54,366 nucleotides of DNA from NCBI GenBank assembly GCA_031290885.1, contig JAISLQ010000065.1, positions 1 to 54,366 on the forward strand, read 5' to 3'. The position numbers were made by a program, and so were the translations under genes. Source of the DNA: Acidaminococcales bacterium (GTDB taxonomy: Bacteria; Bacillota; Negativicutes; Acidaminococcales; JAISLQ01). The notes beneath the pieces were generated by a model. The model was not told the DNA's origin, ran no database searches, and was given only the letters and a program-made list of their open reading frames with translations. Of this stretch, positions 1,079-29,002 are shown in pieces. Every line of letters begins with the position of its first letter. The first letter of the stretch is position 1.

Positions 1079-1987
1079 TTACCCGGCATATTCCTTTAAC
1101 TGCTTTATTTCAAAATCCTGTATGTGCCCACATTCTAAAAAATCCCTGCGACATATCGCCAGTTCCCGCTGCAACCTCGCCGCAAACTGTTTGCAGTCCA
1201 CAAGCCCGAGCCGGTCAACCTTTTCCACCATGCTCAGCCAAAACGACCACTCAAAATATCTCCATGCGGACGCGCTGTCCGGGAACTTCCGGCACAGCCA
1301 ATCGGTGCGCTCGCGGTAGACCGCAAGATACTCGGAAAGCGTCGCGGCGTCAAGCAGGCTGTGATCGGTTGTCCACGCGGAGTTGTTGCCGGGATGTCGA
1401 TGAAAGGTATACTTAGGCAGGCCATGGAACGCGACCTTGTTGGCTTTGGCCAGCATTTTGGGCATGAGCTCAATATCGTCGTATTTGGCGCTATCCGAGA
1501 ACCGATTGCCATCAAACAGCTTGCGCCGCAACAGCTTTGTGGGGAACTGTACATTGAACCTCTTGCGCCAAAGAAGCTCAATAACGGCTTCTTCCGCAGA
1601 ATACACGCGCCTTTCGTCAAATTCTCTATCCACCGCCCCGCAAATAGCGATGTCCGCGTTGTTTTCCATCGCCAGATTGTGTAAAAACGCTAAGAAGTCC
1701 GGTTCACACCAGTCGTCATCATCGACGAAAGCGACCCATTCGCCAACTGCCGCGTCCAGCCCGGCGTTGCGGCCTATGCCGATGTTGCCGCGCTCGCGGT
1801 GAAGTACGCGGATGCGCGCGTCACGTTTGGCGTATTCGTCCGCAATAGCGCCGCTGCGGTCAGAGCTGCCGTTGTCCACGATGACAAACTCAAAGTCGCC
1901 AAACGTCTGCGCGAGGACGCTTTCGATGGCGCGGCTCACCAGCGTTTCGCGGTTGTAGGTCAGCATTATCACGGAAATGACAGTCAT
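1079..1987 (-). CDS. Family 2 glycosyltransferase
   Basis: The protein has 302 residues and a GT-A fold. It begins MTVISVIMLTYNRE, typical of family 2 enzymes, and has the nucleotide-binding loop VDNGSSD and the acidic metal-binding motif VDDDDW. The start at 1987 is preferred over 2056 because it places the family motif at the N terminus and lies 14 bases after the stop of the upstream gene. It should transfer a sugar from a nucleotide donor onto a growing surface polysaccharide at the cytoplasmic face of the membrane. Donor and acceptor cannot be read from sequence. Confidence 0.9.
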   Translation of the reverse strand: MTVISVIMLTYNRETLVSRAIESVLAQTFGDFEFVIVDNGSSDRSGAIADEYAKRDARIRVLHRERGNIGIGRNAGLDAAVGEWVAFVDDDDWCEPDFLAFLHNLAMENNADIAICGAVDREFDERRVYSAEEAVIELLWRKRFNVQFPTKLLRRKLFDGNRFSDSAKYDDIELMPKMLAKANKVAFHGLPKYTFHRHPGNNSAWTTDHSLLDAATLSEYLAVYRERTDWLCRKFPDSASAWRYFEWSFWLSMVEKVDRLGLVDCKQFAARLQRELAICRRDFLECGHIQDFEIKQLKEYAG

Positions 1988-2001
1988 AGCGCATATCACC
2001 A

Positions 2002-3108
2002 CTAAACTGCATACAGTATAGTATCCCAACAACCATATTTGTGCTGCCGCAGACAAAATTTATAATCGTCGCGTATCGAAAGTAGCGTTTGCGGAAGTTC
2101 GTAAACATCCTCAATTTTGTGATACGCGCAAATCGCGAGTTTCGGTTTCGCTTTTTTTATTATGTTCGCGGCGCCGATAAGCGCCTCTTTTTCCGCGCCC
2201 TCAATGTCCATTTTTATGAACGTCGGCAGCTGCGGCTTGTCCGCAAAAAAGGCATCAAGCGAGGTGACAGGTACGCGAACCTGGTCGGCGTCCGTAGCAA
2301 TCACGAATGACGAACCCGCCATATTTTCCGGATTTGGCGTGAACAAAAGCTCCGTTTCACGGCTCCACAATCCCTTTTGCGTGAGCGTAACGTGCTCGTA
2401 CTTGGCAAGATCTTGCGCCGCTTTGGCATAATTTTCCGGATCAGGTTCGAACGAGTATACGTGATACCCAGCAACATTGTTTCTTTTTATAAAATCTTCC
2501 GCTGTGTCCCCCGTATACGCGCCGCCATCGACAAACACCTCGTTAGTGCCGAGCGCAATAACTCCCTCTTCATAATAACAAGCTGATTTTGTGTTCGGCT
2601 TCAGCGGCCTATCTAACAAATACAAACGTATTTTGTCAAGCACAAGGGCTTTTGACGACTCGTCGGAGAAAAAGCTGTACGCCCAAGCATAGCCACTAAC
2701 GTACCGCACAAAACCTTTTACGGCCAAATAATTCCCAAACTCAATCGGGCAACCGATAATTCGTTCATCCGGGAAACCAAGCCCGGAGAGCGTATTCATG
2801 ATGTCATCTTTGTATGCCTGAGAGCACACCATAACCAGCGCATCGCTAAACTCGCGCCGAAGCCGGTCCGCGTCAATAACCGGAATGCCGTCTACGGCAT
2901 CGATAGCCCTTCGGTCACAAAACGCGGCTACGGCCAAGCCCAGTTCACGGCAAGCGTCCAAAAACGCAACGCCTAACTGACCAGCGCCGTACAACACTAA
3001 CGGGCGCAACCCGATGTTTGCCTTTATTTTCCTCAGCAACGAAGCGATCTTGCTGTTTGGTATTTCCGACTTTATTTCTTCAAACTTTTGCGCAAATATG
3101 TCCGACAT
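2002..3108 (-). CDS. FkbM family methyltransferase with N-terminal nucleotide-binding domain
   Basis: The protein has 368 residues from the ATG at 3108, four bases after the stop of the cytidylyltransferase gene. The N-terminal part has a Rossmann-like loop (VLYGAGQLG) followed by CDRR, as in sugar-associated nucleotide-binding domains. The C-terminal half has FkbM features: VFVDGGAYTGDT as SAM-binding motif I and KMDIEGAEKEAL. FkbM enzymes O-methylate sugars and polyketides, so a methylated glycan residue is likely here. The in-frame extension to 3228 overlaps the upstream gene and is not needed. Confidence 0.85.
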   Translation of the reverse strand: MSDIFAQKFEEIKSEIPNSKIASLLRKIKANIGLRPLVLYGAGQLGVAFLDACRELGLAVAAFCDRRAIDAVDGIPVIDADRLRREFSDALVMVCSQAYKDDIMNTLSGLGFPDERIIGCPIEFGNYLAVKGFVRYVSGYAWAYSFFSDESSKALVLDKIRLYLLDRPLKPNTKSACYYEEGVIALGTNEVFVDGGAYTGDTAEDFIKRNNVAGYHVYSFEPDPENYAKAAQDLAKYEHVTLTQKGLWSRETELLFTPNPENMAGSSFVIATDADQVRVPVTSLDAFFADKPQLPTFIKMDIEGAEKEALIGAANIIKKAKPKLAICAYHKIEDVYELPQTLLSIRDDYKFCLRQHKYGCWDTILYAV

Positions 3109-3112
3109 TGAT

Positions 3113-3895
3113 TTAATCCTCCCATACTTTCCATTGTGCCCGGCCATCCGCCCACATCGCTTCCAGCGCGCTTTTGTCCCTGGCCGTGTCCATGCAATGC
3201 CAGAAGCCGCCGTGCTTGTAGACGCCAAGCTTGCCGTCCGCCGAAAGCCGCTCCAGCGGGGCGCGTTCCAGAACCGCCGCGTCGCTGTCCAGATAATCGA
3301 AAATGCCCGGCTCCATTATCATAAAACCGGCGTTTATCCAGTTGCCGTTTTCTTTTGCTTTCTCGCGAAAGCCGGTAATCGTCCCATCGCGGTCGTTAAT
3401 GTCGAGTACGCCGAAGCGGCCGCCCGGTTGAATCGCCGAGAGCGTTACCGTCTTGCCGGACTTCTCGTGCGCGAAAATCAGCTTCGTCAGATCGACGTCG
3501 CTCACGCCGTCGCCATAGGTCACAAGGAACCGCCCGTCCCCGATGTATTTGCGGACGCGCCGTATGCGCCCGCCGGTTTGCGTTTTCAGGCCGGTATCCA
3601 CCACCGTCACGCGCCAAGGTTCGGCGACATTGTTATGCACTTTTATCGCCCCGCCGGCGGAAAAATCAAAAGTCACGTCGCTGCGATGAAGATAGTAGTC
3701 GGCAAAATATTCTTTTATAATATGCCCCTTGTAGCCGCAGCAAATTATAAAATCGTTCACGCCGAAGTGGGAGTAGTATTTTAAAATATGCCACAGAATC
3801 GGCGCGCCGCCAATCTCAATCATCGGCTTGGGGCGAAGGTGGGACTCTTCGCTTATGCGCGTACCGTACCCGCCGGCGAGGATAACAGCTTTCAT
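3113..3895 (-). CDS. rfbF: Glucose-1-phosphate cytidylyltransferase
   Basis: The protein has 260 residues, the usual length for RfbF. It makes CDP-glucose from CTP and glucose 1-phosphate, the entry point to CDP-linked 3,6-dideoxy and branched sugars. The N terminus MKAVILAGGYGTR is the nucleotidyltransferase signature, and RPKPMIEIGG matches the sugar-phosphate cytidylyltransferase pattern. AGGAATGG precedes the ATG. A CDP-glucose 4,6-dehydratase, the normal next enzyme, is not seen in the window and may lie left of base 1 or elsewhere. The gene sits between the LuxC-like and FkbM genes. Confidence 0.93.
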   Translation of the reverse strand: MKAVILAGGYGTRISEESHLRPKPMIEIGGAPILWHILKYYSHFGVNDFIICCGYKGHIIKEYFADYYLHRSDVTFDFSAGGAIKVHNNVAEPWRVTVVDTGLKTQTGGRIRRVRKYIGDGRFLVTYGDGVSDVDLTKLIFAHEKSGKTVTLSAIQPGGRFGVLDINDRDGTITGFREKAKENGNWINAGFMIMEPGIFDYLDSDAAVLERAPLERLSADGKLGVYKHGGFWHCMDTARDKSALEAMWADGRAQWKVWED

Positions 3896-3929: not shown

Positions 3930-5129
3930 TTAACATATCGCCACTACCCTTGAGAGTTCGCGTATCAAATCGCGGCCGTCCCAAACAAGCGAGAAATCCA
4001 TTGTCCTGCCGACCGGGACGATCCGGTCGACGCCGGGCGGCGCGTTTGCCAATATGAAATCGCGCAGCTTTGCCGCGTCAAGGCCTATATAGGAAAGCGT
4101 CTGGCATTTGCCGCCGCAGAGCGGGAGTATTTCGTCAAGCGCTTTCGCGTCGTATTCATAGAAATAGCCGCTGTTTTCCAAATTGTCCAATATGCTGCGG
4201 CCAAGCTTTTTCACAGCGACCCGCATAAGTTTGCAATCGTCCGCTTTGGCCAGTTTGCAAGCCGAATTGGCCGCAAACCGGTAAAACGTTGACAGTTTGT
4301 TTACCGTCTGCGCCGGCTTTAGTTCATAGCCTTCGAGTTGATCGGACAAAGACGCCCAAAATATTTCCCTGGCCTTTTCGATTTCCCCGCCGAGCCAGAT
4401 AACGGCGCGCGGCGAAGTGCAGGCGTTCTGGTCGGTCAAATAGGTGTCGTTGTAAAAATCCCGCGCTGCTTTTGCTTTGTCGTAATCGGCCAAGTACTTG
4501 TCAGAGTTTATGAGACAGATTGAGTAGCGGTCGGAGAAGGTTATCTCGTTCGCCCGCGGCGGCAGGGGCGACTGGCGGATTTGCGCCACGGTCGCATCGC
4601 CGCCCCAGATGATGCGGGAATTGCAAAGCGCGCTTAAAGCGTCCGTGGTTTTTTTGTCGCGGGCGTATTTGACAAGGCACAGACGGGCGGCGATGTCCGT
4701 GAATTCGCCGCTGTAGAGCAGCTTCGTTATCGCCTCGCACAGCGGCGCTATCTGTTCAAAGTCTTTGGACGGCAGCCGCACGACATTTGCGTTGCCGGCC
4801 AGCATGCCGACCGCCATCGAGTACGCGAAGTTCAGCGGCACATTGGACGGAGCGATGTGGAACGCAACGCCTCTGCCCAATCTGTCGCTGTCGTCATACT
4901 GTTTCCGCAGCAACAAAAGGTTGGCTTTGCGGCACCAGAACGCGAATGTTACCGCGTCGGGAAACCGCCTCGCTTTCGCGGACTTTAATATTTCGCCGGA
5001 CAGCGCGCGCAAAAACGCGGTAACCCTCCCGTCGAATATCCGCATTGCCGGTTGCTTTTGCATATTGGCAAGAACATCCTCGCTGCCGGCTATATAATCA
5101 ACCTGTTCAAAAACTTGCCGCATATGCAT
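3930..5129 (-). CDS. LuxC-like acyl-CoA/acyl-protein reductase
   Basis: The protein has 399 residues and resembles the LuxC fatty-acid reductase family, an aldehyde dehydrogenase-like fold that reduces an activated acyl group to an aldehyde with NADPH. DQNACTSPR carries the expected catalytic cysteine. HIAPSNVPLNFAYSMAVGML and the GNANVVRLPS region match the LuxC cofactor-binding core. The start overlaps the end of the luxE-like gene by 23 bases and has a GAGG Shine-Dalgarno sequence. No luciferase (luxAB) is present, so the aldehyde probably serves sugar or lipid modification in the glycan pathway, not light emission. The acyl substrate is unknown. Confidence 0.85.
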   Translation of the reverse strand: MHMRQVFEQVDYIAGSEDVLANMQKQPAMRIFDGRVTAFLRALSGEILKSAKARRFPDAVTFAFWCRKANLLLLRKQYDDSDRLGRGVAFHIAPSNVPLNFAYSMAVGMLAGNANVVRLPSKDFEQIAPLCEAITKLLYSGEFTDIAARLCLVKYARDKKTTDALSALCNSRIIWGGDATVAQIRQSPLPPRANEITFSDRYSICLINSDKYLADYDKAKAARDFYNDTYLTDQNACTSPRAVIWLGGEIEKAREIFWASLSDQLEGYELKPAQTVNKLSTFYRFAANSACKLAKADDCKLMRVAVKKLGRSILDNLENSGYFYEYDAKALDEILPLCGGKCQTLSYIGLDAAKLRDFILANAPPGVDRIVPVGRTMDFSLVWDGRDLIRELSRVVAIC

Positions 5130-6192
5130 CGCTGCATCCTCTTATCTCCGCGTCTTTCAGCCTGCCGAGCACTTTAAAATATTTGCCTTTGCGTCCGCAC
5201 GGGCAGTCGTCCTCGCCAAGGATTACGCCTTCGTCTTCCGTTAAGAGGACGTGTCCGCAATATGATTTCGGCAACGCCGACACTACCTCAATAATGCCCG
5301 CCTCGCCGTAATCGCAGACGGACAGATCCGCCCGGCGCGTAATTACGTCCGAGAATACGCTCGCATGCAAATGCCCCTTCTCACATTCCATATACACGCA
5401 GCCCGTCTGCTCCACCATGCCGTAATAATTGTGGACATGGTCTATGCCGCACACGGCTTTGAGTTCCGACTTGAATACGCCGGGGCTTACGCTCTGGCCG
5501 GCGAGTTTTTTCCACCCGCCGCCGTGAATAAGCACGCCGCCTGACAAGTCCGCCATGCCCGAAAGATTTTTCAGTTTTGCGCAGAAGTGTTGCCATACCA
5601 TAAAAGTAAAGCCAAACAGCAGGATGCGTTTTCCGCTGTGTTTTGCCAAAAAAGCGGCCAGGGCTTTTACGTCAAGGTTCATATCGTCGTCCAGCGCGTA
5701 TATCTTATCGTTCCCGAATATGGAAAAGCCCAATATTGCCGCGCCGCGGGCGGAAAACATCCGCCGGTCCCTAACGGACGACGGGCAGTCGATTATGATC
5801 ATCGGCAGCCTTGCCGTACCTAAAAACGACGCCACTATCCTGACGAGCGCCTTTTGCTGCTGTCCGGCCGTCGCGCGGTCGAGAAAAATCCTAGAAGTCG
5901 CCTGGCCTGTAGTGCCGGAGGACGTCATAGTTTTAAATATTTCCGCATCGCTGACGCTTTTCAGCGTCAGTTCCTTGAACAGACGGACGGGCAAGAACGG
6001 CAAATCGCGGCAGCCACCAGTAGCGCCGCGAGGGTCAAAGCCCAGCGCGTCAAGCATGGAGCGGTACTCGCGGCAGTTGTCGTAGTGAAACGCCGTCAGG
6101 TCCAAAAGCGCGCGCGCCAATATTCGCTCTTTGTCCGTTTTCAAAAGCGAAAACGGCTCTACATTCATCAGCTCGTCAATCATGTCAATCAT
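5107..6192 (-). CDS. LuxE-like acyl-protein synthetase
   Basis: The protein has 361 residues from the ATG at 6192 (a second in-frame ATG lies at 6183). It belongs to the LuxE/acyl-protein synthetase group of ANL-type adenylating enzymes. TSSGTTGQATS is the phosphate-binding loop, and YYGMVEQTG matches the adenylate-forming core. A cysteine-rich stretch (CPCGRKGKYF) near the C terminus is typical of the wider family. In bioluminescence LuxE activates a fatty acid and passes it to LuxC, and the neighbouring LuxC-like gene supports a matching pair. The start overlaps the AMP-ligase stop, so translational coupling is likely. Confidence 0.85.
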   Translation of the reverse strand: MIDMIDELMNVEPFSLLKTDKERILARALLDLTAFHYDNCREYRSMLDALGFDPRGATGGCRDLPFLPVRLFKELTLKSVSDAEIFKTMTSSGTTGQATSRIFLDRATAGQQQKALVRIVASFLGTARLPMIIIDCPSSVRDRRMFSARGAAILGFSIFGNDKIYALDDDMNLDVKALAAFLAKHSGKRILLFGFTFMVWQHFCAKLKNLSGMADLSGGVLIHGGGWKKLAGQSVSPGVFKSELKAVCGIDHVHNYYGMVEQTGCVYMECEKGHLHASVFSDVITRRADLSVCDYGEAGIIEVVSALPKSYCGHVLLTEDEGVILGEDDCPCGRKGKYFKVLGRLKDAEIRGCSDAYAASF

Positions 6193-7585
6193 CCAATGCC
6201 GAATACAAAGTTTTCCCCGAGTCGTTTTTCGGGATGGCACCAATAACCTTGACTTCAAACGCGGAAAAGTGCAGCCCGGTTTTCTCCGCTATGAATTTCC
6301 GTAAGTACCGGACAAGCGCGGCATCGGTCACATACACTTTCATTTTGTCGTCTACGCCGGCGCAGGCGCACTCGCAACCGCACGCCGTCTTGACGAGACG
6401 TTCAGCCTCGTCAAGGTTGATCCTGTTGCCGAATATTTTCAGAAACCTTTTTTTGCGTCCGACAATATAATAGTACCCGTCGCCGTCGCGTTTTGCCATG
6501 TCGCCGGTAACAAGGACGCCGCCGCGCTCGTCGCCTTTTTGTAAATCATCGCCGCGTTCCGCGTAGCCGAGCGTTACGTTGGCGCCTTTGTACACAAGTT
6601 CTCCGACAGTTTCGCTTGCGGCGATTTCCTTGCCGTCCGCGTCAATCAGGCTGAACTCGCCGCCCGGTATGGCTATTCCCATGCTGCCGTACTTTTCAAG
6701 CGATTTCTCGTAAGGCAGGTATGACATTCGCGCGGTCGCCTCGGCCGATCCGTACATAACGACAAACCGGCGCCCCGTGTCCTTCGCGTACTCCGCAAAC
6801 TTTTTGTGAAGTTCCGGCGAGAGCTTTCCGCCCGCCTGCGTCATTGTCCGCAAAGAGGGCAGCTCCATGCGGAAGAAACGCAATCTGTCAAGCATTTCAA
6901 AAGTATACGGCACCCCGCCGAACGAAGTCGCTTCGTAATCTTTGAACTGCTGCCAGAACTCTTTCCCGATAAGCGTCTTTTGCGTCAGGATTATGGACGC
7001 GCCGGCCCAAAGATGCGAATTGATTATTGACAGCCCGTATGTGTAACTCATCGGGAGCGTAGTAATCGGGCGCTCCGCTTCGTCAAGTTCCAAGTACCGC
7101 ACAATTGACGCAGTGTTCGCCCGGATGTTATTGTAGCTTTGCCGCACAAATTTCGGGCTGCCGGTTGAGCCGGAGGTCGTCAGCAGCAAGGCCAGATCGT
7201 CGTTTAACGCGAAAGCGCGGGCATGACGGGTTTTTAGCAGGGAGTAGCCCCAAGCCGCATAAACGTTCCCGCAATCGCCGAACCTATCCGCCATATCCGA
7301 AGGAAGCCACAAATAATCGGGCCTATAGTTTTCGAGCAAAGCGTCAAGCATTTCGCGGTCAATATCGGCGTTCAGCAGGAGCGGGACGATGCCGTGGTTT
7401 ATGAACGACGCGTAGCCAAGCGCCGAGCCTTTCTCGTTCCGGCACAGTACGAACGCGAGACAGCGGCCGCCGGCCGCCGCCGCCAGCTGCTCCCCCTCGC
7501 GCGCCAGCTCGGCATAATTAGTTTTGCCGCCGTCCTCGGCAATGAACGCGGTATTTTCCGCAAAGTCCTCAAATTTCCACATCAT
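6185..7585 (-). CDS. AMP-dependent acyl ligase (ANL superfamily)
   Basis: The protein has 466 residues. LLTTSGSTGSPKFVRQS is the ATP-binding P-loop, YGSAEATARM is the A5 motif, and VTGDMAKRDGDGYYYIVGRKKRFLK is the A7/A8 region. The C-terminal KNDSGKTLY carries the conserved lysine. Such enzymes adenylate a carboxylate and load it onto CoA or an acyl carrier protein. The acyl carrier gene directly upstream, which it overlaps by 17 bases, suggests it charges that carrier. With LuxE and LuxC downstream this forms an acid-activation and reduction module. Confidence 0.9.
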   Translation of the reverse strand: MMWKFEDFAENTAFIAEDGGKTNYAELAREGEQLAAAAGGRCLAFVLCRNEKGSALGYASFINHGIVPLLLNADIDREMLDALLENYRPDYLWLPSDMADRFGDCGNVYAAWGYSLLKTRHARAFALNDDLALLLTTSGSTGSPKFVRQSYNNIRANTASIVRYLELDEAERPITTLPMSYTYGLSIINSHLWAGASIILTQKTLIGKEFWQQFKDYEATSFGGVPYTFEMLDRLRFFRMELPSLRTMTQAGGKLSPELHKKFAEYAKDTGRRFVVMYGSAEATARMSYLPYEKSLEKYGSMGIAIPGGEFSLIDADGKEIAASETVGELVYKGANVTLGYAERGDDLQKGDERGGVLVTGDMAKRDGDGYYYIVGRKKRFLKIFGNRINLDEAERLVKTACGCECACAGVDDKMKVYVTDAALVRYLRKFIAEKTGLHFSAFEVKVIGAIPKNDSGKTLYSALDD

Positions 7586-7805
7586 ACTTTTTCAGGATCT
7601 CCTTGCCTTTTTCAAACGAACCGAAATCAATAATGTCCTCCGTGTCAAGCATTATATCGAACGCCGCTTCCAGCGCGGCCATAAGGGTCATGTGCCCCAC
7701 GCTGTCCCAGTTCGCGACTTCCTGGTACTTTGCCGTCTTTGCCTCGCCCTCGCTGATGCCGAAAGATTCGGCAAAGGCTCGGCTGTATTTTTCGAGATTT
7801 GTCAT
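7569..7805 (-). CDS. Acyl carrier protein
   Basis: The protein has 78 residues, standard carrier-protein size. WDSVGHM contains the serine that receives the 4'-phosphopantetheine arm, in the usual D-S-x-x-x-M context. An acidic helix (LDTEDIIDFGSF) follows, as expected for partner recognition. AGGGATC lies upstream of the ATG. It is a dedicated carrier for the glycan operon and not a lone housekeeping AcpP, because it is embedded between transketolase and AMP-ligase genes. The carried acyl group is unknown. Confidence 0.92.
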   Translation of the reverse strand: MTNLEKYSRAFAESFGISEGEAKTAKYQEVANWDSVGHMTLMAALEAAFDIMLDTEDIIDFGSFEKGKEILKKYDVEI

Positions 7806-7836: not shown

Positions 7837-8802
7837 TTATTGTTTGTATTCTTCTAATATGCTTTGCGCTAATTGAGCCGGCAACAGCCCGGCTTTATCC
7901 AGCATATAACTGTATCCGCCCGCGTGCGGGTAACCGTCGGCAATGCCGATTATCCGCTGCGGCGGCTTGCGCTTTACTCTTGCGAGGTATTCGGCGACCG
8001 CTCCGCCCAACCCGCCGGCTACGCGGTGTTCTTCAACCGTTACAATCAGCCCCGCGTCAAGGGAAGCGTCAATCGCGTCCGCATCAAGCGGCTTGATTGT
8101 GTGCATATTTATCACGGAGCAGGAAACATCATGGGTTTCGAGTATTTTAGCCGCCTCAAGCGCGTAATGGACCATGCTCCCTGCCGCCAGCAGCGCAATG
8201 TTTCGCCCTTCTTGCAACTTTACGGCCTTTCCTATCCTAAACTCATAGTCGCCTTTATAAACGATGGGATTATTGGCCGCGCCCGTAAGCCGCAAATAAA
8301 CAGGCTCGTCTAAAGTTGAAATTGTCTCGACTGCCTTGACTGTTTCGAGCGCGTCCGCCGGGGAAACTATGTTTATATTTGAAATCGGGCGCAATGCCCC
8401 GACATCTTCCAATCCGTAGTGCGTATATCCTAAAACACCCATGCCGAAGCCCGCGCCAAAACCGACAAGTTTTACCGGCGAACGCATATAGCCCATAAAG
8501 TGCTTGGCGAACTCATTTGCCCGCAGCGCGGCAAAGTTGGCAAAGGTCGCGGCAAAAACATTGTACCCGGCATCAGCTAACCCTGCGGCAATCCCGACCA
8601 TGTTTTGTTCGGCTATGCCGACGTTGGCAAACCTGCCGGGGTAATTTTTCGCGAACCGGCCAAGCCCCGCGCTATTTTGCACATCCGCCGCCAAAGCGAA
8701 TATTTTGTCATTGCCTGCCGCCAATTTATCAAGCGTCGCGCCGAATGCGCCACGCTGCCCGAGCATTGAAAGCGTCCGGATTTCGGATGGTTTATATTCC
8801 AA
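7837..8802 (-). CDS. Transketolase-like protein, C-terminal subunit
   Basis: The protein has 321 residues and covers the pyrimidine-binding and C-terminal domains of transketolase. ANVGIAEQNMVGIAAGLA holds the glutamate that activates thiamine diphosphate. The start is TTG at 8802 with AAGGAGG nine bases upstream; it overlaps the N-subunit gene by 11 bases, so both subunits should be made together. Split transketolases in polysaccharide clusters are thought to transfer two-carbon ketol units to unusual acceptors. The nearby LuxC aldehyde producer would offer such an acceptor, but that is inference. Confidence 0.92.
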   Translation of the reverse strand: MEYKPSEIRTLSMLGQRGAFGATLDKLAAGNDKIFALAADVQNSAGLGRFAKNYPGRFANVGIAEQNMVGIAAGLADAGYNVFAATFANFAALRANEFAKHFMGYMRSPVKLVGFGAGFGMGVLGYTHYGLEDVGALRPISNINIVSPADALETVKAVETISTLDEPVYLRLTGAANNPIVYKGDYEFRIGKAVKLQEGRNIALLAAGSMVHYALEAAKILETHDVSCSVINMHTIKPLDADAIDASLDAGLIVTVEEHRVAGGLGGAVAEYLARVKRKPPQRIIGIADGYPHAGGYSYMLDKAGLLPAQLAQSILEEYKQ

Positions 8803-9586
8803 CGCGCCCTACCTCCTTCGCGGCTTCTTCATATTGCTTGTCCGAAAGGCGGCTGTGATGCCACGCGCTATTGTTCTCCATAAACGATACGCCCTTGCCC
8901 TTGACCGTTTTCGCCAAAACCGCCTGCGGGGCAGCGGCGGGGGAAACATCAAGTTCCTCCCGCAACGCGCTTAGCGAATGTCCGTCACACGCCGCCGTCT
9001 GCCAGCCCGCCGCTTTCCACATGGCCGCCACGTCAACGGCCAGAATGTCGGCGGAAAACCCATCAAGCTGCATTCCGTTATAGTCCACGACGGCGACTAA
9101 ATTATCCAGTTTCTGATGGGCGGCAAACATTGCCGCTTCCCAGTTTGACCCCTCGTTTAATTCGCCGTCGCCCAGCAATACATATATATTTTTGTCCTTG
9201 CCCTGCTTTTTCGCCGCCAAGGCAAGCCCACAGGCGTAAGACAGCCCCATCCCCAAACTTCCGCTCGAACAAATAATTCCATTATGTATATTTTTAGACG
9301 GGTGCGCCAAAAAGCCGCTGCCATTGGTTTCAAAAGAGTCCAATTGTTCTTCCGTAAGCAGCCCGGCTTCTTTAAGGACGGCATAATAGGCCAAACCGGC
9401 ATGCCCCTTGCTTAAGATAAACGCATCCTGCGGCCGGAGAACGCCGAAAAACAGGGCGGTCAATACCTCAACCACGGAAAGCGAAGGGCCAATATGCGTC
9501 CCGTTTCCGCCTTTGTTTGCTTGATTGGCCAGTCGCAGTATATTCAGCCGCGCGTTTTTGGCGGCCGACTCGATTCTTTCATTCAT
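8792..9586 (-). CDS. Transketolase-like protein, N-terminal subunit
   Basis: The protein has 264 residues and forms the diphosphate-binding half of a split transketolase. LGDGELNEGSNWEAA followed by VVDYNGMQLDG is the thiamine diphosphate and Mg-binding motif (GDG...N). GTHIGPSLSVVEVLTALFFG is the conserved N-terminal segment. The ATG overlaps the SDR stop by four bases (ATGA). It works as a complex with the C-terminal subunit encoded next. Its place in a glycan operon suggests a role in making a branched or extended sugar, not in the pentose phosphate pathway. Confidence 0.92.
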   Translation of the reverse strand: MNERIESAAKNARLNILRLANQANKGGNGTHIGPSLSVVEVLTALFFGVLRPQDAFILSKGHAGLAYYAVLKEAGLLTEEQLDSFETNGSGFLAHPSKNIHNGIICSSGSLGMGLSYACGLALAAKKQGKDKNIYVLLGDGELNEGSNWEAAMFAAHQKLDNLVAVVDYNGMQLDGFSADILAVDVAAMWKAAGWQTAACDGHSLSALREELDVSPAAAPQAVLAKTVKGKGVSFMENNSAWHHSRLSDKQYEEAAKEVGRVGI

Positions 9587-10284
9587 TCGATATACCCCCC
9601 TCCCCCGTCAACTTTCAAAACTTGGCCGGTAATAAATGACGCTTCGTCAGAGGCCAGAAAGTATATCGCTTGCGCGATTTCGTTCGGTTTTCCCAATCTG
9701 CCGAAAACAGAATGGCGCAAGGTGCTTGCCCGTAATTTTTCTTCCATTTCCTGCGCCATGTCGGTTTCGGTAAGTCCCGGCGCAACGGCGTTGACCCGCA
9801 CTTTGCCCTGCAATTCCGCTTGCAGCACCTTTGTCCAGGCGATCAGCGCCGCCTTGGAGACGCCATAGGCGCAGTTGCCCGCCCGAAAATCAATCCCCGC
9901 TACGGACGCGACATTTGTAATGCTGGCGTTCTCCTTGGCCATAATCTTTAAGATAAGCTGCGTAAGTTCCATATGCGCAAACAAATTTACGGCAAACACT
10001 TCTTTTATCCGGGCGACGGGCGTCATTTGAAACAAGCCGCCGTGCGCGACGCCCGCGTTGTTCACCAGCGCGTCAATGGTTATCTTGTCTCTCCGGAGCT
10101 GCTTGACACATTCTTTCATCAAAGCGGCGTCAAGCATGTCGAAACAAACGGGAAGAACATTTTCTGTATCTATTTCCCGTGGTTTGCGGGAATGGGCAAC
10201 GACGCGCCAACCATTTTCCAGAAACTTTTCCGCCGCAGCTTTGCCTATTCCCCGGTTAGAACCGGTAATAAATACAGTTTTCAT
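9583..10284 (-). CDS. Short-chain dehydrogenase/reductase (FabG-like)
   Basis: The protein has 233 residues with a classical SDR layout. TGSNRGIG is the NAD(P)-binding loop, NNAG follows, and YGVSKAA carries the catalytic Tyr and Lys, with the serine expected in the preceding VASVAG strand. It ends with the C-terminal ITGQVLKVDGG typical of 3-oxoacyl-ACP reductase-like members. It could reduce a keto sugar or a beta-keto acyl-ACP, and the acyl carrier gene in the same operon makes the second idea possible. Its start directly follows the stop of an SDR fragment, which suggests two tandem SDR genes existed before. Confidence 0.9.
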   Translation of the reverse strand: MKTVFITGSNRGIGKAAAEKFLENGWRVVAHSRKPREIDTENVLPVCFDMLDAALMKECVKQLRRDKITIDALVNNAGVAHGGLFQMTPVARIKEVFAVNLFAHMELTQLILKIMAKENASITNVASVAGIDFRAGNCAYGVSKAALIAWTKVLQAELQGKVRVNAVAPGLTETDMAQEMEEKLRASTLRHSVFGRLGKPNEIAQAIYFLASDEASFITGQVLKVDGGGGYIE

Positions 10285-10449
10285 TTATAGGATATAGCCC
10301 CCGTCCACGCCCAGCACCTGAGCGGTAATATAGTTGGAGCTGTCTGACGCAAAGAACAAGACGGCGTTCGCGATATCTTCGGCGGTTCCGACGCGGTGCA
10401 TTCCGACGTTGTTGTCCACGTAGCCTTTCAATATTTTATCATCCGTGCT
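10285..10449 (-). pseudogene. Remnant of a second SDR gene (C-terminal ~54 residues)
   Basis: Between the GNAT stop and the intact SDR start lies a frame that translates to the end of an SDR protein. It includes VGTAEDIANAVLFFASDSS and YITAQVLGVDGG, the typical FabG C terminus. It opens only after a stop at 10450-10452 and lacks the cofactor and catalytic segments. No proper start codon with a ribosome binding site is visible. It resembles, but is not identical to, the C terminus of the neighbouring intact SDR, so it is best read as the tail of a partly deleted tandem gene. Confidence 0.8.
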
Positions 10450-11161
10450 TTACGTATACATAACGCGCTGACGTTATTTGACCTCCAAGATACAAATTCA
10501 TTCTCAATGACGACATATTGTTGGAGGAAACTGCGCCGCATAAGGTCTTGGCACCAGCTTCCGCCGCGTGCCTAAGCTGCGCAGCGAGAACGCTTGTCCC
10601 GAAGCCGGCGGCCTCGAACTCCTTATACACTCCTATAAACAGGCCATGGTTGCCATCCTTTTTCAACCGCGAAACAAAAAAACCAACGGCTTTGCCTTTA
10701 AACATGCATTTGTATGGTTCGTAGCCGTTTTCAAGCGCGTCTGCAATCCAGCCCATATAGCGCTGCGCCGACTGCTCCTTTGTAAAGTGCGGGTCGACAT
10801 ACACCCGGTCAGTATGAAAAACGCCCAGCTTTAACTGACGCTTCAGCTCGGCCAAGTCCGCATCGGCCATCCGCCGGTAACTGATGCTGTCCGCAAACCT
10901 TTTTGTTATGCGATCGAGCGTTGCGCCGATATTTTTAAGGTCGTGCCGAACGGCAAACATCGTTTCTATATAACGATAGCCCATATCCTCCAGCTGGAAC
11001 ATCAATTCAATGGCTCCCGCCGGTACCCTCGCGACGGCATACTCGCAGTCAAGCCCGCGAAGCTGCTCTAAATCGGAAAGCGTGTCGTTTGCGGCAAGGT
11101 TGATTTCTTTGGCGACAACCCCGAGGTTTCTTTTTTCCCAAACGGCGTCAATAATTTCCAT
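10439..11161 (-). CDS. GNAT family acetyltransferase
   Basis: The protein has 240 residues and is the first gene after a good promoter. The C-terminal half carries GNAT features: a strand with GLFIGVYKEFEAAGFGTSVL as the acetyl-CoA binding region, then LCGAVSSNNMSSLRMNLYLG. The layout resembles dTDP-fucosamine acetyltransferase-type (WecD-like) proteins, with a long N-terminal part before the GNAT core. It probably acylates an amino sugar of the surface glycan; the substrate is not certain. GGGGATAGGGTG lies before the ATG. The last bases overlap the frame of the SDR remnant, so a deletion may have shaped this end. Confidence 0.8.
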   Translation of the reverse strand: MEIIDAVWEKRNLGVVAKEINLAANDTLSDLEQLRGLDCEYAVARVPAGAIELMFQLEDMGYRYIETMFAVRHDLKNIGATLDRITKRFADSISYRRMADADLAELKRQLKLGVFHTDRVYVDPHFTKEQSAQRYMGWIADALENGYEPYKCMFKGKAVGFFVSRLKKDGNHGLFIGVYKEFEAAGFGTSVLAAQLRHAAEAGAKTLCGAVSSNNMSSLRMNLYLGGQITSARYVYVKHG

Positions 11162-18141: not shown

Positions 18142-19113
18142 TCATGGTTGCCAATACTTGCTGCCTTCGTCGGTCAAATCCTTAAAAAGCACGGTGGACA
18201 AGTAACGTTCCCCGGTATCGGGCAGAAGCGCCACGATGGTTTTGCCCTCGTTTTCCGGGCGCAGGGCAACTCTGGCCGCGGCAAAGGCCGCCGCCCCCGA
18301 CGATATGCCGACCAGCAGCCCTTCGGTTCTGGCGAGCACGCGCGCGGTGTCGATCGCTTCTTCATTTTTTACTTTGTAGATTTCATCAACTACTTTAAAG
18401 TCAAACACTTTAGGCACAAACCCGGCGCCGATACCTTGTATTTGATGCACCCCCGGCGCCCCGCCCGACAGGACGGGGGAGTCCGCCGGCTCGACGGCGA
18501 CGATCTTGACGGCGCTTTTTCTGCTTTTCAGCGCCTCGCCCACGCCGGTAACGGTGCCGCCCGTACCTACGCCGCCAACGAAAACATCCACTTTGCCGTC
18601 CGTGTCCCGCCAGATTTCCTCGGCGGTAGTCGCCCGGTGTATGGCGGGATTGGCCGGATTGTTGAATTGCTGCAATATAATGGCGGACGGTACGGAAACG
18701 GAAAGTTCTTCCGCTTTCCTTATGGCGCCTTTCATGCCGTCCGCGCCGGGCGTCAGCACCAGTTCCGCGCCCAGCGCCTTGAGCAGGGATCGCCTTTCCA
18801 GGCTCATGGTGTCGGGCATGGTCAGGATGATCCTGTAGCCGCGAGCCGCCGCCACAAAGGACAGCCCGATCCCGGTGTTGCCGCTGGTCGGCTCAATAAT
18901 AACCGAATCGGCGCGCAGCAGCCCTTTTTCTTCCGCATCCAGAATCATCGACAAAGCTATTCTGTCCTTCACGCTGCCGGCGGGGTTGAAATATTCCAGC
19001 TTCAGCAGAAGGTCCGCTTTTATCCTGGCTAATTTCAAAAATGATTTCGGCCGCAAAAGCGGGGTATTGCCGATCAGGTCAGTTAAAGAATCCACAGCGG
19101 TGGCCATTTGCAT
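18142..19113 (-). CDS. cysK: Cysteine synthase (O-acetylserine sulfhydrylase)
   Basis: The protein has 323 residues. [11 protein letters not shown] carries the pyridoxal phosphate lysine, TSGNTGIG binds the substrate carboxylate, GTGGTVTG holds the cofactor phosphate, and [11 protein letters not shown] is the C-terminal signature. It makes cysteine from O-acetylserine and sulfide. AAGGAAG precedes the ATG (a second ATG two codons on is possible). It starts 22 bases after the nitrogenase-like alpha gene, as the last gene of that operon. This placement suggests that sulfide is a product of the upstream reductive system. Confidence 0.95.
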
Positions 19114-19135
19114 ACTTCCTTTCTTTGTTGAATTA

Positions 19136-20683
19136 TCACAGTTGCGCTTCTTTTATATTATCAAAAGGATTGCTTTCGTACCACTCCTTTCGGAAAGGCA
19201 AGGCTACGTTGGCCGCTATTTTTTTCGCCAGATTGGTATTTTGGAAAGCCCTCGCCGCTTTTCTGGCCAGCTCAAAGGCGCCCGAATAGCCCATGTAGTT
19301 AAAGGACTGCCCATAAAGCGGCGTAGTCGTCAGCCCCAGTTTCGTCGCCCAGCCGTTGGCGCCGCCGTGCCCGACATATAAATCGGGCTTAAGTTTTTTC
19401 AAAATGACCATCTCTTCCGCCGGTTGGCCTGGCGCAACGTCAATAACGGCGTCCTGGTCGTTTATTTCCTCAATCATCGGCACGGCGAAATGATCGAAGT
19501 TGTGCGGTTTTAAGCCCAGCACCCTCATTCCCAGCGACTGATAAAATTCGGCGGTGGTAAATATGCGCGTTTCCCCGCCGCCGACAAATACAGTCTTGTT
19601 CTTGAGCGCCGCTTTCAGCGGCTCCAGCGCCTCCGTCAGTTGGCTTGTCTCCAATTGGATGAGGTTCTCGGTTTCTTTTTCCAGGCGCATGGCTTTGCCA
19701 ATGGCGCGCAGCCATTTGTTGGTATTTTTGATCCCGATTGGCAGAGTGTCTATTATATACTCCGTGCCGAACCGTTCTTTTAAGTGCCCTACCAGATAAT
19801 CGTCGTGCGTGGCGCAAATGCTTATATTAAGCGCCGCTTCGCCCATGCGGGCGATTTCGTCAATATGCCCGAAAAGCGGCAGCACGTTAACTTTGAGGCC
19901 CAGCGCCGTAAGCAGCCTGGAAAGCTCCACCTCGTCGCCATAGCTGGTAGATCCGACGTTTAAAAGGTTGACCGTTCTGTTTCTTACATACTCTTCCCCG
20001 GCGTCCAGAAGCGCCGCCCCAACATCGTTCGGCACGGCGCGCCTGTAACGGGCGGGCGGGTCGGCCAGTTTTTTCAGCAGGCCGTGGTAAGCGGCGTCAT
20101 AGCCGCTGGCGACAAACTTGCTCCGAAACCCTTCGCAGTGTACCGGAACCACGCGGGCGGACAATTGCGCGTCCAATTCGTCAAGCAGCGGGTCTATGTC
20201 GTCGCCGATAATGCCCGGGACGCAGCTGTTGCCTACTACGATGACGTCAGGCCGGTACTCTTTTTCGGCGTAAAGCACCGCGTCGCGCAGTTTCTGCTGG
20301 CCGCCGTCAATAACGTCGCGCTCGTCAAGATTGGTATGCATCCATACTACATCCTGGACCGGCTTCCCTTTCAGCGCGCGCGCCGTCTTATTAAACCCCG
20401 CCAGCCCGATGTTGTTGGAAGCGCAGCCAAGCGGGCCGTGTATGATGACCACGACATTTTGAAAAGTCCGCACTATGCCGAGCGCCAAAGTGAGCTGGCA
20501 ACCGTTGCCCTGCGCGAATTTCCTGCTGTTGAACTTGAGGCATCCTTGCCCCATGCCCGTCTTCAAGCCGCAGCAAGAACCGCCGAAAGCGGTCGTCGCC
20601 TGTATGCGCTCCTCGCGCGTCGGAGCGGCGTCCGCTCCAAGATAATTATAGGTCAAGCCTTTGGTCAATTCGTTTTCCGCCAT
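19136..20683 (-). CDS. Nitrogenase component 1-like protein, alpha-type subunit
   Basis: The protein has 515 residues and aligns by eye with NifD-type subunits. Three cysteines match the P-cluster ligands: Cys62 (GNGCQL), Cys87 (GPLGC) and Cys154 ([11 protein letters not shown]). VHCEGFRS matches the NifD segment VRCEGFRG. Cys290 in [11 protein letters not shown] lies where NifD has its cofactor ligand Cys275. The NifD His442 position appears to be Gln459 ([11 protein letters not shown]). Extra cysteines (37, 38, 48) sit in an N-terminal stretch. No nifH, nifB, nifE or nifN gene is seen nearby, so classical nitrogen fixation is unlikely. GGGAGGGGAAG precedes the ATG. Function is unknown, but a reductase is likely. 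Confidence 0.85.
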
Positions 20684-20732
20684 TTACTTCCCCTCCCCGC
20701 GCCGTTCATTTTGCCGAATGTGCGCTTTTCGG

Positions 20733-22073
20733 CTACCGGTTGGCCACCAGCGCGGAAAAAATGTCCTCCGCCAGCGTCAAGGCGCCCCGATAACCTGTAT
20801 ATCCTTTATTTAAAACCGCCCTGTTGGTAACCGGAAAAACTACCGGCAAAAAGCCCGCGCCCACCTTTTGCGCCGTGCCGGCTTCCAAACTGCTGCCGAT
20901 GAGAAACGCGGGGCTTAAAGCGTTGTAATATTTATCGTTGCGATTTTGCGGCCAGCTCTCTTTGATATGTTTGAGCAGCTGCCCGGTGTTTTGTTCAAAA
21001 ACCAGCTTGGGCTTTGCCAAAGAAGTGATGTTTTTATACTTTTTTTCGTATTTTTTCCGGCTGAAGTCGTCCAGTTCCTCGTTTATCACCACCAAGTGCG
21101 GTATCCAGCCGAGATCCTCGCTCAAAAAACTGACGAGGGGATAAGCGTAATTAATATCGGCGGAAACTATGGCGTAACGCTGCAGATCAATGTCGCCGTA
21201 GATTTCCAGGAAACGCTGGAAATAACTGTAATAATATTTTCTTTCTTCGTTTATGACCGTTTCCAGGTCAACATCTTTAATTTCCAGGGGATCGGCTATT
21301 TTGCGCAGGAAGTTTTCCGTTCCCGTGTCGCCGATCGGCAGATCGGTCGTTATATAGGGCATGCCGTGTTTTTCTTCAAAGGTTTGCGCGGCCTGCAAAC
21401 CGTGTTTTTCCGAAAACACTATATTAAGGCCCGCGCCGCCGTATTCGCGTATTTTGGCGATGGTCTCCCCGTCGCCGAAAAAGCTGTTGGCCTTTATGCC
21501 CAATTTGCCGAGCAACTGGACTATATTGCTTATATTGCCCCGGCAAAAAACATCTTGCCCCGGCATGATGCCCAGAATATTTACGGTTTTCTTGTCCTTT
21601 TTTGCCTTGGGGCTGATAAAATCGGCGGCGAGCGTACTGAGCACCAGATCGTAGCCCTTGAAGCCATTGCCGGCGAAACCGGGCGTACTCGCGCAAAGCA
21701 CCGGATATTTCCCGCCTTTGAACCGCCCGGCTACGCTCTGCGCGTCGTCGCCGATAATTTCCACCTGGCAGCCTGTAACGACAAAATACAAATCGCCGTC
21801 CATTACCTTGATCGTATGCTCAATTTGCTCTTCTAACCGGTCTTCGCCGCCAAAAACAATATTCTTTTCAATGATGTTGGAAGTCGGGGTCATGGTGCCG
21901 CTGCAATAATCCGCCCCCTTGTAAGCGCCGCCAAGATTGTAGGCGGCGGAAAGCGTCTGCGCGCAGCCGCCGGAAGCGTGGACGACGGGGATCGCCCTGG
22001 GCAGGGACGAAATAGTTACAAGGGCGCCGCCCAAAGCGCAGGTGGTTTTGGCTCGTTCAATAAAACCTGACAC
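20733..22073 (-). CDS. Nitrogenase component 1-like protein, beta-type subunit
   Basis: The protein has 446 residues from a GTG start with AAGGAGAT eight bases upstream. Cys12 (AKTTCALGGAL), Cys37 (ASGGCAQ) and Cys102 (VTGCQVEIIGDD) match the three P-cluster cysteines of NifK. Together with the alpha partner, all six cluster cysteines are kept, so a P-cluster-like [8Fe] centre is expected at the interface. The protein is shorter than NifK and lacks its long N-terminal extension. It lies 49 bases before the alpha gene in transcription order (beta first, then alpha), opposite to nifDK order. Confidence 0.85.
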   Translation of the reverse strand: MSGFIERAKTTCALGGALVTISSLPRAIPVVHASGGCAQTLSAAYNLGGAYKGADYCSGTMTPTSNIIEKNIVFGGEDRLEEQIEHTIKVMDGDLYFVVTGCQVEIIGDDAQSVAGRFKGGKYPVLCASTPGFAGNGFKGYDLVLSTLAADFISPKAKKDKKTVNILGIMPGQDVFCRGNISNIVQLLGKLGIKANSFFGDGETIAKIREYGGAGLNIVFSEKHGLQAAQTFEEKHGMPYITTDLPIGDTGTENFLRKIADPLEIKDVDLETVINEERKYYYSYFQRFLEIYGDIDLQRYAIVSADINYAYPLVSFLSEDLGWIPHLVVINEELDDFSRKKYEKKYKNITSLAKPKLVFEQNTGQLLKHIKESWPQNRNDKYYNALSPAFLIGSSLEAGTAQKVGAGFLPVVFPVTNRAVLNKGYTGYRGALTLAEDIFSALVANR

Positions 22074-22092
22074 AAAAACATCTCCTTGCTTT

Positions 22093-22290
22093 TTACTGTT
22101 CTATGGCCGCGTTAAGATCGCGCACAAGCCGTACGATGTCTATCCCATGCGCCGCCGCCCCTTGCTCTATGCTCTCAAAATGCGCTATGGCGCAGCCTAT
22201 GCAGCCCATGCCGTGCCGGGAGAACACTTCTGCGGTCTCCGGATGCCGGCCCACTACTTCGCCGATGCCGTTTTCTTTGGAAATGGACAT
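22093..22290 (-). CDS. DUF1858 domain protein with CxxC motif
   Basis: The protein has 65 residues. The pattern IGEVVGRHPETAEVFSRHGM, then CIGC, then HGIDIVRLVRDLN, matches the DUF1858 family, which also forms the N terminus of ScdA/RIC-type iron-repair proteins. GAGGTGGG lies before the ATG. It sits 19 bases before the nitrogenase-like beta gene, so it is probably part of the same system. It may help in metal-cluster handling or electron transfer, but no function is proven for such stand-alone proteins. Confidence 0.85.
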   Translation of the reverse strand: MSISKENGIGEVVGRHPETAEVFSRHGMGCIGCAIAHFESIEQGAAAHGIDIVRLVRDLNAAIEQ

Positions 22291-22314
22291 GTTCCCACCT
22301 CATTTTATTTTTGC

Positions 22315-22590
22315 TCATATGTTTATGGCCAAAGCTTGTTGTTCCTTTTCATGCGCCGCTACGCTCTGCTGGGCGATAATGGCCGCGCCCAGCGCTCCGG
22401 CGTAGATGGTGTCAAGGTTGACTTTGCTGAAAGGATATTTTAGAATGTCTTCCAACGCTTTTTTCATGCCGGCGTTATTAGAAACTCCGCCGGTGAAAAT
22501 GATATCAGGCGCAAGCCCCATCCTATTCAGCAGATTTTTCACGCGGCGCGCTGTGGCTAAATGTATGCCGGCCGCGATATCGGCGCGTTT
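22315..22590 (-). pseudogene. Truncated BadF/HgdC-type activator (C-terminal 91 residues)
   Basis: The frame opens right after a TGA at 22591-22593, eleven bases downstream of the binding-protein stop, and reads KRADIAAGIHLATARRV..., then TGGVSNNAGMKKA and the ending ALAINI. This matches the last third of the full activator at 25106-25987, which has the same ending. The ATP-binding N terminus and both cluster cysteines are missing. It is a remnant of a third activator gene, left after deletion. A short product from an internal ATG (75 residues) cannot be excluded but would lack activity. Confidence 0.85.
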
Positions 22591-22600
22591 TCACAGGTTC

Positions 22601-23611
22601 TTACTTTTTGTAATAAGGATTAAACTCGTTAGTATAAATATCCGATGCTTTTACATCGCCTTTTATCTCATCGAATTCCCGTAACAAATCGATCCACACT
22701 GTAATAGTTTCTTCTTTGATTATGCCGTCCGGCGCGTAGTAGCCTTCCGTCATGTCCTGGCCTTTCAAGCCGCCGCCGGCCGCTTTGGCGGATATTTCCA
22801 TCGCCTTTTCCGGGTTGGCGTTGGCCCAATTGAGCGTCTCAGCTGTAGCTGCGACAAAATTTCTTACTGTCTCGGGATTGCTTTTAATAAACTTGTCGGA
22901 GAAAAAGAGCGGGGTAGCGCCGCCAATCGTCCCCCAAATGTCATAATCGGAAAAAAGCACTTTAAACTCGCCGTCTTTGTCTATCTCCGCAGGTATCTTG
23001 TGCAACATGATCAAATCAAGGTCGTTCTGCCTGAGTGCCTGTTGCAGTTGTTTTTCCGGCAATATAATGATTTCCACTTTGCTTTTGGGGTTTTCCACGC
23101 CGTTTTTTTGCAAATAGGCGTAAGGAGTATATTCATGGCATCCACCTGTTTGGGTTATGCCAATTTTTTTGCCCAAAAGATCCTTTGCGCCTTTGATAGG
23201 GCTGTCTTTCCTGATAACGCCAACCATGTGCGGAACGCGTTTGGATGTTTCCTGTCCGCCTACGACCGCCTTGACTTTGGCACCAGCAGAAATGCCGGCT
23301 ATTGTCCTGTTTATGTGGGAAGGATGCGTAACGTCGACTTTGTCTGCCACTACTGCGGCAATGGCCTGCGATGAAGGGACAGAGCCCACGATCTCTAATT
23401 TGATGCCATGTTTGACAAAGAAGCCCTGACTGTTTCCCACCTCGAAAATATCGGGCGTAAGCGAACCGGACTTTTTCGGCACCCTGACGACGGAAAGTTT
23501 CCTGCCGCCTGCGTCTGCCGCTTCTTTGCCCGCTTGTTTCCCGGTGGAGCAGCCGGCACATAAAATTAAAACAAAGAATAAGGCAAACCAAAATCGTGTA
23601 TTCTTCTTCAT
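22601..23611 (-). CDS. ABC transporter substrate-binding lipoprotein (sulfonate/nitrate/taurine type)
   Basis: The protein has 336 residues. It starts with a lipoprotein signal: basic MKKN, a hydrophobic run, and the lipobox LCAGC with Cys21 as the lipid anchor. The mature part has the SsuA/TauA/NMT1-like pattern, with repeated AIAAVVADKVDV and GKKIGITQTGG segments and QALRQNDLDLIMLHKIPAEI. It would capture the substrate outside the membrane for the permeases at 28224-29845. In this operon it is separated from its transporter partners by the dehydratase-type genes. The ligand is not predictable by eye. Confidence 0.88.
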   Translation of the reverse strand: MKKNTRFWFALFFVLILCAGCSTGKQAGKEAADAGGRKLSVVRVPKKSGSLTPDIFEVGNSQGFFVKHGIKLEIVGSVPSSQAIAAVVADKVDVTHPSHINRTIAGISAGAKVKAVVGGQETSKRVPHMVGVIRKDSPIKGAKDLLGKKIGITQTGGCHEYTPYAYLQKNGVENPKSKVEIIILPEKQLQQALRQNDLDLIMLHKIPAEIDKDGEFKVLFSDYDIWGTIGGATPLFFSDKFIKSNPETVRNFVAATAETLNWANANPEKAMEISAKAAGGGLKGQDMTEGYYAPDGIIKEETITVWIDLLREFDEIKGDVKASDIYTNEFNPYYKK

Positions 23612-23669
23612 ACTGATATCCCCTTTCCTCTACCGTTTTCCCGCCAACGACCTGTTGCGGCAAAAGCCG

Positions 23670-24884: not shown

Positions 24885-25105
24885 CCATCATCCCTTCTCT
24901 CATCTTCTTAAATAATGTGGATTAAATTTATTGGCTCATAAAAACATAAACTCTACAAACTGCCTTTTTCTTGGCGCCCGCTTGTTATCTGACCGCTGCC
25001 GCAGATAGGGCTGAATAAGCGCAATCTGCACGGCCAATGAAAACAAAGATTCAAATTGCCAGCCTGCATTTTCTTCCCCTTATCGTTTAATTTTGCCGAG
25101 TGCTT

Positions 25106-25987: not shown

Positions 25988-26108
25988 GATCTTCCCCCTT
26001 GTCCATATTCTGCGCTTTTCTGCTATATTTAAGTATTCGGCCTGTGTACGCATATTGTCTATTGCGCCAAATTCCATAAAAATCCCGATTCCGAATGCCG
26101 TTGGCCGC

Positions 26109-28991: not shown

Positions 28992-29002
28992 GCGGCATCC
29001 TC

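Follow-up and report, generated by a model that had tools for sequence, protein, structure and literature searches.

The locus described here, found in a window of 54,366 nucleotides (the whole stretch of DNA that was analyzed) from a bacterium of the order Acidaminococcales, could be a dedicated cassette for building a side chain or sugar precursor, in which LuxE and LuxC would make an aldehyde, a split transketolase would lengthen it by two carbons and an SDR would reduce the product; we put the probability of this reading at roughly one half. As a gene set, the cassette is not new (PMC7874193, PMC4875605, PMC4522980, PMC6206727). What is new here, as the alignments have it, is a clade of LuxE-linked transketolases with a changed acceptor site, and this clade gives a specific and testable prediction.

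How might such genes turn a plain acid into part of a sugar? In the route that we infer, in each of its reactions, substrates and destination, the AMP ligase would load a small carboxylic acid onto the acyl carrier protein (ACP), where it could be modified, and the acid would then be released, in many relatives by a thioesterase. LuxE would activate the freed acid and take it onto its own cysteine, and reduction by LuxC would yield a free aldehyde. The split transketolase, its recognition of phosphate and 2-hydroxyl lost, would add a two-carbon ketol unit to this non-phosphorylated aldehyde, and the SDR would reduce the resulting hydroxyketone to a polyol-like chain. The product would go to a surface or flagellar glycan, perhaps with the WecD-like acyltransferase joining it to a 4-amino-4,6-dideoxy sugar. 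What we observe directly is which genes are present and in what conserved order, that their catalytic residues are intact, that the acceptor site has changed and that the genes occur together.

If this is true, the cassette links fatty-acid-like with sugar chemistry in one route, it offers candidate assignments for moieties of flagellin and of surface glycans that have yet to be identified, and it contains transketolases that take non-phosphorylated aldehydes by nature, an ability so far gained through laboratory evolution. Rather more tentatively, we suggest that the route is widespread; that is, many bacteria may start from a plain carboxylic acid and arrive at a sugar or a glycan side chain by way of a LuxE/LuxC aldehyde and a distinct transketolase clade that adds two carbons, and a sister version may use an AHAS-like enzyme and a NeuB-type synthase in place of the transketolase. 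The original prediction named no defined product, and in this it stands: our literature search found neither a defined product of the cassette nor an assay of any of its enzymes.

Genes and Extent of the Cassette

The original prediction described an acid reduction module of four genes in a row with overlapping ends, at positions 3930 to 7805, and no luciferase. The four genes are there, on the minus strand and in the order ACP, AMP ligase, LuxE and LuxC, each with a Pfam match except the ACP; the ACP and ligase genes overlap by 17 bp and the LuxE and LuxC genes by 23 bp, with ligase and LuxE nearly abutting. The extent was drawn too narrowly, since SDR, split transketolase and WecD-like genes share the operon elsewhere: the unit begins upstream of those four, with the WecD-like acyltransferase, the SDR and the split transketolase (Table 1). 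Seen this way, the minus strand from 10284 to 3930 holds an acp-SDR-ligase-luxE-luxC set with the transketolase pair inserted among its members. For LuxE, a longer reading frame runs from an in-frame TTG at 6258; the ATG at 6183 agrees with relatives.

Table 1. Features of the locus, with their positions in the window and the basis of each assignment
Feature	Position	Strand	Basis
WecD-like GNAT N-acyltransferase, cassette gene 1	10439..11161	-	Homologues in LuxE loci and predicted fold
SDR gene remnant, C-terminal ~50 codons only	10285..10440	-	Resembles SDR C termini
SDR (FabG-like) reductase	9583..10284	-	Conserved S-Y-K
Transketolase N-terminal subunit (TKN, thiamine diphosphate domain)	8792..9586	-	PF00456
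Transketolase C-terminal subunit (TKC), altered acceptor site	7837..8802	-	PF02779 and PF02780
Acyl carrier protein (ACP)	7569..7805	-	Invariant WDSVG serine
AMP-forming acid ligase, presumed ACP loader	6185..7585	-	PF00501 (AMP-binding), 133.8 bits (cut-off 29.9)
LuxE-type acyl-protein synthetase	5107..6183	-	PF04443, 202.5 bits (cut-off 24.9)
LuxC-type acyl reductase	3930..5129	-	PF05893, 90.7 bits (cut-off 21)
Glucose-1-phosphate cytidylyltransferase (RfbF), cassette link uncertain	3113..3895	-	TIGR02623, 384 bits (cut-off 300)
FkbM-type methyltransferase	2002..3108	-	PF05050, TIGR01444
Family 2 glycosyltransferase	1079..2056	-	PF00535
Radical SAM protein, last gene before contig end	92..967	-	PF04055

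The window starts at base 1 of its contig, so that the locus is cut on the side of the radical SAM gene, and the glycan and its polymerase lie outside our view. In base composition the cassette is not set apart from its flank, and scans for promoters and terminators gave about as many matches as in shuffled sequence.

Core Enzymes and Their Active Sites

The catalytic residues of the core are intact, and they are the ones that its relatives keep. The nucleophile C237 of LuxC is invariant (83 of 83 relatives), as are the nucleophile C350 of LuxE (86 of 86) and the catalytic K458 of the AMP ligase (82 of 82), and the S, Y and K of the SDR are kept in 78 to 79 of 79. Neither Pfam nor NCBIfam has a model that matches the ACP; the serine of its DSVG is the same in all 68 relatives, and relatives on plasmids carry the annotation acyl carrier protein. 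Among solved structures, the AMP ligase is matched by CoA ligases down to E 1e-25.

Both reductase components resemble the LuxC–LuxE complex of Photobacterium (7xc6). The LuxE profile matches 7xc6_E at E 3e-30, the alignment placing C350 on the GC(S) cysteine of that chain; the LuxC profile matches the LuxC chain at E 3e-11, with C237 aligned to the cysteine there; and among solved structures the predicted LuxC model (pLDDT 89.9) comes closest to 7xc6_A (E 5e-17, TM 0.71 over the query). Fold, active-site cysteines and, presumably, acid-to-aldehyde chemistry are thus shared, whereas the Photobacterium enzymes serve a luciferase with a long-chain aldehyde and the window LuxC is ~80 residues shorter. 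The conversion of an acid to an aldehyde, as originally proposed, fits these matches and the invariant cysteines, and we consider it likely.

At the other end of the cassette, the GNAT has a predicted fold (pLDDT 92.6) whose best match is WecD, the TDP-fucosamine acetyltransferase (2fs5, E 2.3e-14), and its match to the NCBIfam WecD model is weak (44 bits against a cut-off of 219). It has 18 homologues in the surveyed LuxE loci, at 28–38% identity and often directly before the SDR gene. The remnant between GNAT and SDR reads DKILKGYV...VDGGYIL* and is 44–69% identical to the SDR C termini of related loci, several of which have two SDR genes at this same place.

A Recurrent Cassette

A scan of genomes with the LuxE alignment returned at least 586 LuxE relatives, of which the best 80 were read; together with plasmid loci and loci from a search of the phylum, the survey covers 90 loci including the window. 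Around these best 80 of at least 586 relatives, the same partners are kept in many phyla, the sources being Lachnospiraceae, Oscillospiraceae, Gastranaerophilales, Spirochaetes, Synergistales, Bacteroidales, Smithella, Selenomonadaceae and others; the cassette is frequent in gut bacteria and occurs also in Rhizobium, Deinococcus, Dickeya and Aeromonas. Counted over the 90 loci, an AMP ligase is present in 88, an ACP in 71, an SDR in 65 and a transketolase C-subunit in 40, and the complete core of ACP, ligase, LuxE and LuxC stands together in 62, across many phyla, which excludes a chance grouping. The exact order SDR-TKN-TKC-ACP-ligase-(thioesterase)-LuxE recurs in 16 surveyed loci, 7 of which open with a GNAT like that of the window. 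The nearest cassette overall among the loci read lies in a Brevinematales MAG (L103), where the SDR is 68% identical to ours.

Frequent added partners are WecE, NeuD, NeuB, a thioesterase, FabZ, an LDH-like dehydrogenase and an AHAS-like thiamine enzyme, and FkbM homologues occur in 12 of the 90 loci. About 30 of the 90 have a thioesterase or a metallo-beta-lactamase-fold hydrolase next to the core; the idea that these two strictly exclude each other was dropped, the trend having the same direction without significance (p 0.28). Relatives often adjoin NeuB, WecE, glycosyltransferase or sugar-transferase genes, so that the glycan setting first proposed was right in general. The locus adds one more copy to a recurrent, widespread cassette that mostly stands beside surface-sugar genes.

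Does the cassette travel as one piece? The locus-to-locus distances of LuxE, LuxC and ligase correlate (Spearman 0.61–0.75), consistent with one co-inherited unit. The distances of TKN and TKC correlate with each other (0.61) and barely with those of the LuxE/ligase core (0.09–0.16), and more than half of the loci have no transketolase; the transketolase is therefore an exchangeable add-on, and a fixed unit that includes it is ruled out.

A Transketolase Tied to LuxE

Exchangeable as it is, the transketolase is chosen selectively. For this comparison, 51 complete LuxE loci with 10 kb upstream were set against 20 glycan loci of the window's phylum that have WecE and no LuxE, read in the same way. 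The pairing of luxC/luxE-like genes with transketolase pairs, looked for in these neighborhoods, is real and selective: the pair is present in 24 of 51 LuxE loci and in 0 of 20 controls (Fisher p 5e-5, a value that, like the other p-values given here, is optimistic, because the loci derive from the best 80 of at least 586 relatives and are mutually related and the control was selected differently). ACP (49 of 51), AMP ligase (51 of 51) and the AHAS-like enzyme (11 of 51) are likewise each absent from all 20 controls. One or the other thiamine enzyme, transketolase or AHAS-like, is present in 34 of the 51 loci, and the two are nearly exclusive, with one overlap (p 0.006). For 31 of 44 TKC copies, the next gene is that of the ACP, the ligase or LuxE.

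Both subunits are recognizably those of split transketolases, with 6yak as the best solved match of TKN (E 8e-54) and a match of TKC to 6yaj at E 1.6e-57. In E. coli TktA numbering, the window enzyme keeps the thiamine diphosphate and catalytic residues H26, H66, H100, D155, E160, N185, H261, E411 and H473. In TKC, H461, which we take to be a phosphate ligand, has become G, and D469, which presumably faces the 2-hydroxyl of the acceptor, has become L; the catalytic Glu is kept. Both residues are lost in all 41 LuxE-linked C-subunits. Generic split transketolases of the same phylum retain the two in 16 of 17 cases, and the sole exception comes from a genome that itself carries a LuxE cassette. 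The housekeeping transketolase of the window's own genome keeps both. The cassette enzymes fall into a single clade (support 0.92), which takes in no further generic enzyme. Two more positions vary within it: S385 differs in 24 of the 41 enzymes and R358 in 17, and the window keeps both. R520 was dropped as a telling residue: generic split transketolases, too, have G there.

These are positions with a history. In the E. coli enzyme, S385 contacts the substrate phosphate, and an evolved S385Y/D469T/R520Q variant accepts aromatic aldehydes, with earlier steps having led toward aliphatic ones (PMC5073344); R358, S385, D469 and R520 have all been engineered (PMC7661550). The split transketolase of Carboxydothermus hydrogenoformans (6yak, PMC7661550) shares with the window its two subunits and its thiamine diphosphate site but keeps the H461 and D469 that all cassette enzymes have lost. 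Judged from these replacements, the loss of H461 and D469 points to a non-phosphorylated acceptor that has no 2-hydroxyl, such as LuxE and LuxC would supply. It leaves the donor unexplained, since the phosphate pocket serves the donor too. Direct incorporation of the aldehyde into the sugar, as originally proposed, is not supported; it may be extended by the transketolase or reduced to a hydroxy acid.

Comparison with Known Systems and Other Readings

One of the closest described systems is in Dickeya zeae, which has a version of the cassette with two transketolase genes and no assigned function (PMC4522980, PMC6206727). Its enzyme set is that of the window, transketolase pair included, but it has two SDRs and a maltose-type O-acetyltransferase and sits between the flagellar genes fliA and fliC, whereas the window has the GNAT, one intact SDR with a remnant, and RfbF downstream. 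Flagellin islands of Aeromonas group II and of enterobacteria carry an ACP-SDR-ligase-LuxE-LuxC set for which a "liposugar" has been suggested (PMC7874193, PMC4875605). They share with the window the ACP, 3-oxoacyl-ACP reductase, AMP synthetase, LuxE and LuxC near glycosyltransferases; they differ in that no transketolase is reported. Their set lies within a flagellin/pse island; in our genome the flagellin, Maf and Pse-type genes seen are on contigs C84 and C37, and the cassette contig breaks off at base 1 of the window.

Vibrio cholerae O1 is the only case we found with a proposed small-acid product, and it supplies the main rival to our reading. There, a carrier protein, an AMP ligase and a LuxE-domain protein (RfbN), as in the window, stand within the O-antigen cluster. 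The pathway presumably also has an alcohol dehydrogenase (RfbM), with RfbN being a LuxC/LuxE fusion, and we know of no transketolase in it; in the window, by contrast, LuxC and LuxE are two overlapping genes, not fused, and the cassette has the SDR instead of RfbM. The tetronate pathway encoded by rfbKLMNO goes back to Morona 1995 (as cited in PMC4772473 and PMC12208996); in it, RfbL reportedly activates 2,4-dihydroxybutanoic acid, either for CoA or for the carrier RfbK (PMC12208996). By analogy, the window's enzymes would take a carboxylate to an aldehyde, which a reductase would turn into an alcohol, and the resulting hydroxy acid, for example 2,4-dihydroxybutanoate, would be activated by ligase and ACP and attached as an amide to a 4-amino sugar, with the transketolase doing something else.

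We think this unlikely, at perhaps one chance in a few, and yet it has more in its favor than any other competitor. An N-acyltransferase like WecD is what it needs, and in relatives the GNAT goes with WecE (p 0.01); a search at E 1e-100, however, found no WecE in this genome. It would also suit the flagellin of Aeromonas AH-3, whose strain group has acp-SDR-ligase-luxE-luxC and which bears a 102 Da moiety of unknown nature and a 376.14 Da pseudaminic acid derivative: we compute 102.03 for C4H6O3, the acyl residue of 2,4-dihydroxybutanoate, and 376.148 for Pse5Ac7Ac plus C2H4O2. As long as the moiety has no identity, this agreement of masses is numerology, for mono-O-methylglyceryl would weigh the same, and we treat it as a lead and not as evidence of identity. 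Nor does a hydroxy-acid product account for why the cassette is selectively linked to an altered transketolase or to an AHAS-like enzyme.

Less probable by about half is a branched-chain sugar, in which the thiamine enzyme would branch an NDP-4-keto sugar with a two-carbon unit, of the kind seen in yersiniose, and the aldehyde would be used separately. A nucleotide-sugar acceptor would also suit the loss of phosphate recognition, RfbF directly follows LuxC in the window, and in one further locus (L107) LuxC is likewise followed directly by RfbF and then by CDP-glucose 4,6-dehydratase and RfbH, with an AHAS-like enzyme nearby. Against this, RfbF occurs in only 3 of the 90 loci. The CDP-3,6-dideoxyhexose pathway pairs RfbF with a CDP-glucose 4,6-dehydratase, and of the two this genome (~95% complete) has RfbF but no dehydratase that scores above the cut-off.

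A conventional fatty-aldehyde pathway of the luminescence type, serving lipids or wax-like products, seems very improbable to us. The LuxC and LuxE families and their fold are the same, and the thioesterase of relatives is reminiscent of LuxD, but the scores fall far below the NCBIfam luminescence equivalogs (NF052251, NF052244; 45.2 against 750 and 66.9 against 550), the neighbors are glycan genes and the genome has no PF00296 match, that is, no luciferase. The same scores and the missing luciferase rule out bioluminescence.

Host Genome and Origin

LuxC and LuxE are each single-copy in this genome, and no LuxE was found in the other 62 genomes of the order, so that the cassette was probably acquired. 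Viral contigs and phages yielded no relatives, and an origin from either was rejected. The probable acquisition, together with the truncated SDR between the GNAT and the intact SDR, might suggest a decaying, non-functional island, the most remote of the readings considered here, but the remaining frames are all open, their catalytic residues are intact and a second SDR is present. As to where the product of a working cassette might go, the genome holds flagellin, Maf and pseudaminic-type (Pse) genes on contigs other than that of the cassette, which makes flagellin one possible glycan target.

Variation in the cassette

The transketolase N-terminal subunits encoded in these cassettes carry an asparagine in place of the Mg-binding D155 (E. 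coli TktA numbering) in 10 of 38 cases, unlike their generic counterparts, where the same replacement was found in none of 27. A sister version of the cassette combines an AHAS-like thiamine enzyme with NeuB (L043, L046, L049, L061, L085, L088, L094, L116 and L117); most of these surveyed loci include FabZ and have neither SDR nor transketolase, and the association of the AHAS-like enzyme with FabZ has a p-value of 1e-5, which is optimistic because the loci are related to each other. Five surveyed loci (L063, L065, L084, L099 and L107) hold two LuxE copies, and in some of them, the second pair adjoins transketolase and SDR genes but has no ligase of its own. It is as if two acids were reduced within one pathway.

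In the window itself, the cassette retains an SDR remnant, the trace of a deletion within it.

Features of the window
Feature	Position	Strand	Remark
SDR gene remnant, C-terminal part	10285-10440		immediately past the GNAT stop codon
Putative nitrogenase-like reductase gene cluster	18142-30837	minus	
Two nitrogenase-component-1-like proteins	19136-22073	minus	

Other loci in the genome

Apart from the cassette, the genome has a flagellin glycosylation locus, formed by the genes of L134 and L135 (contigs C84 and C37): the end of a flagellin gene, a Maf-like protein, PseB/PseC-like genes and a PseF/G/I-like set with FliD.

In the window, the two nitrogenase-component-1-like proteins and the genes around them may form a nitrogenase-like reductase cluster that acts on sulphur compounds. 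Their companions there are cysteine synthase, an NMT1-type ABC transporter, an HGD-D protein and an acyl-CoA dehydratase activase, along with a 677-aa activase/double-cubane reductase fusion.
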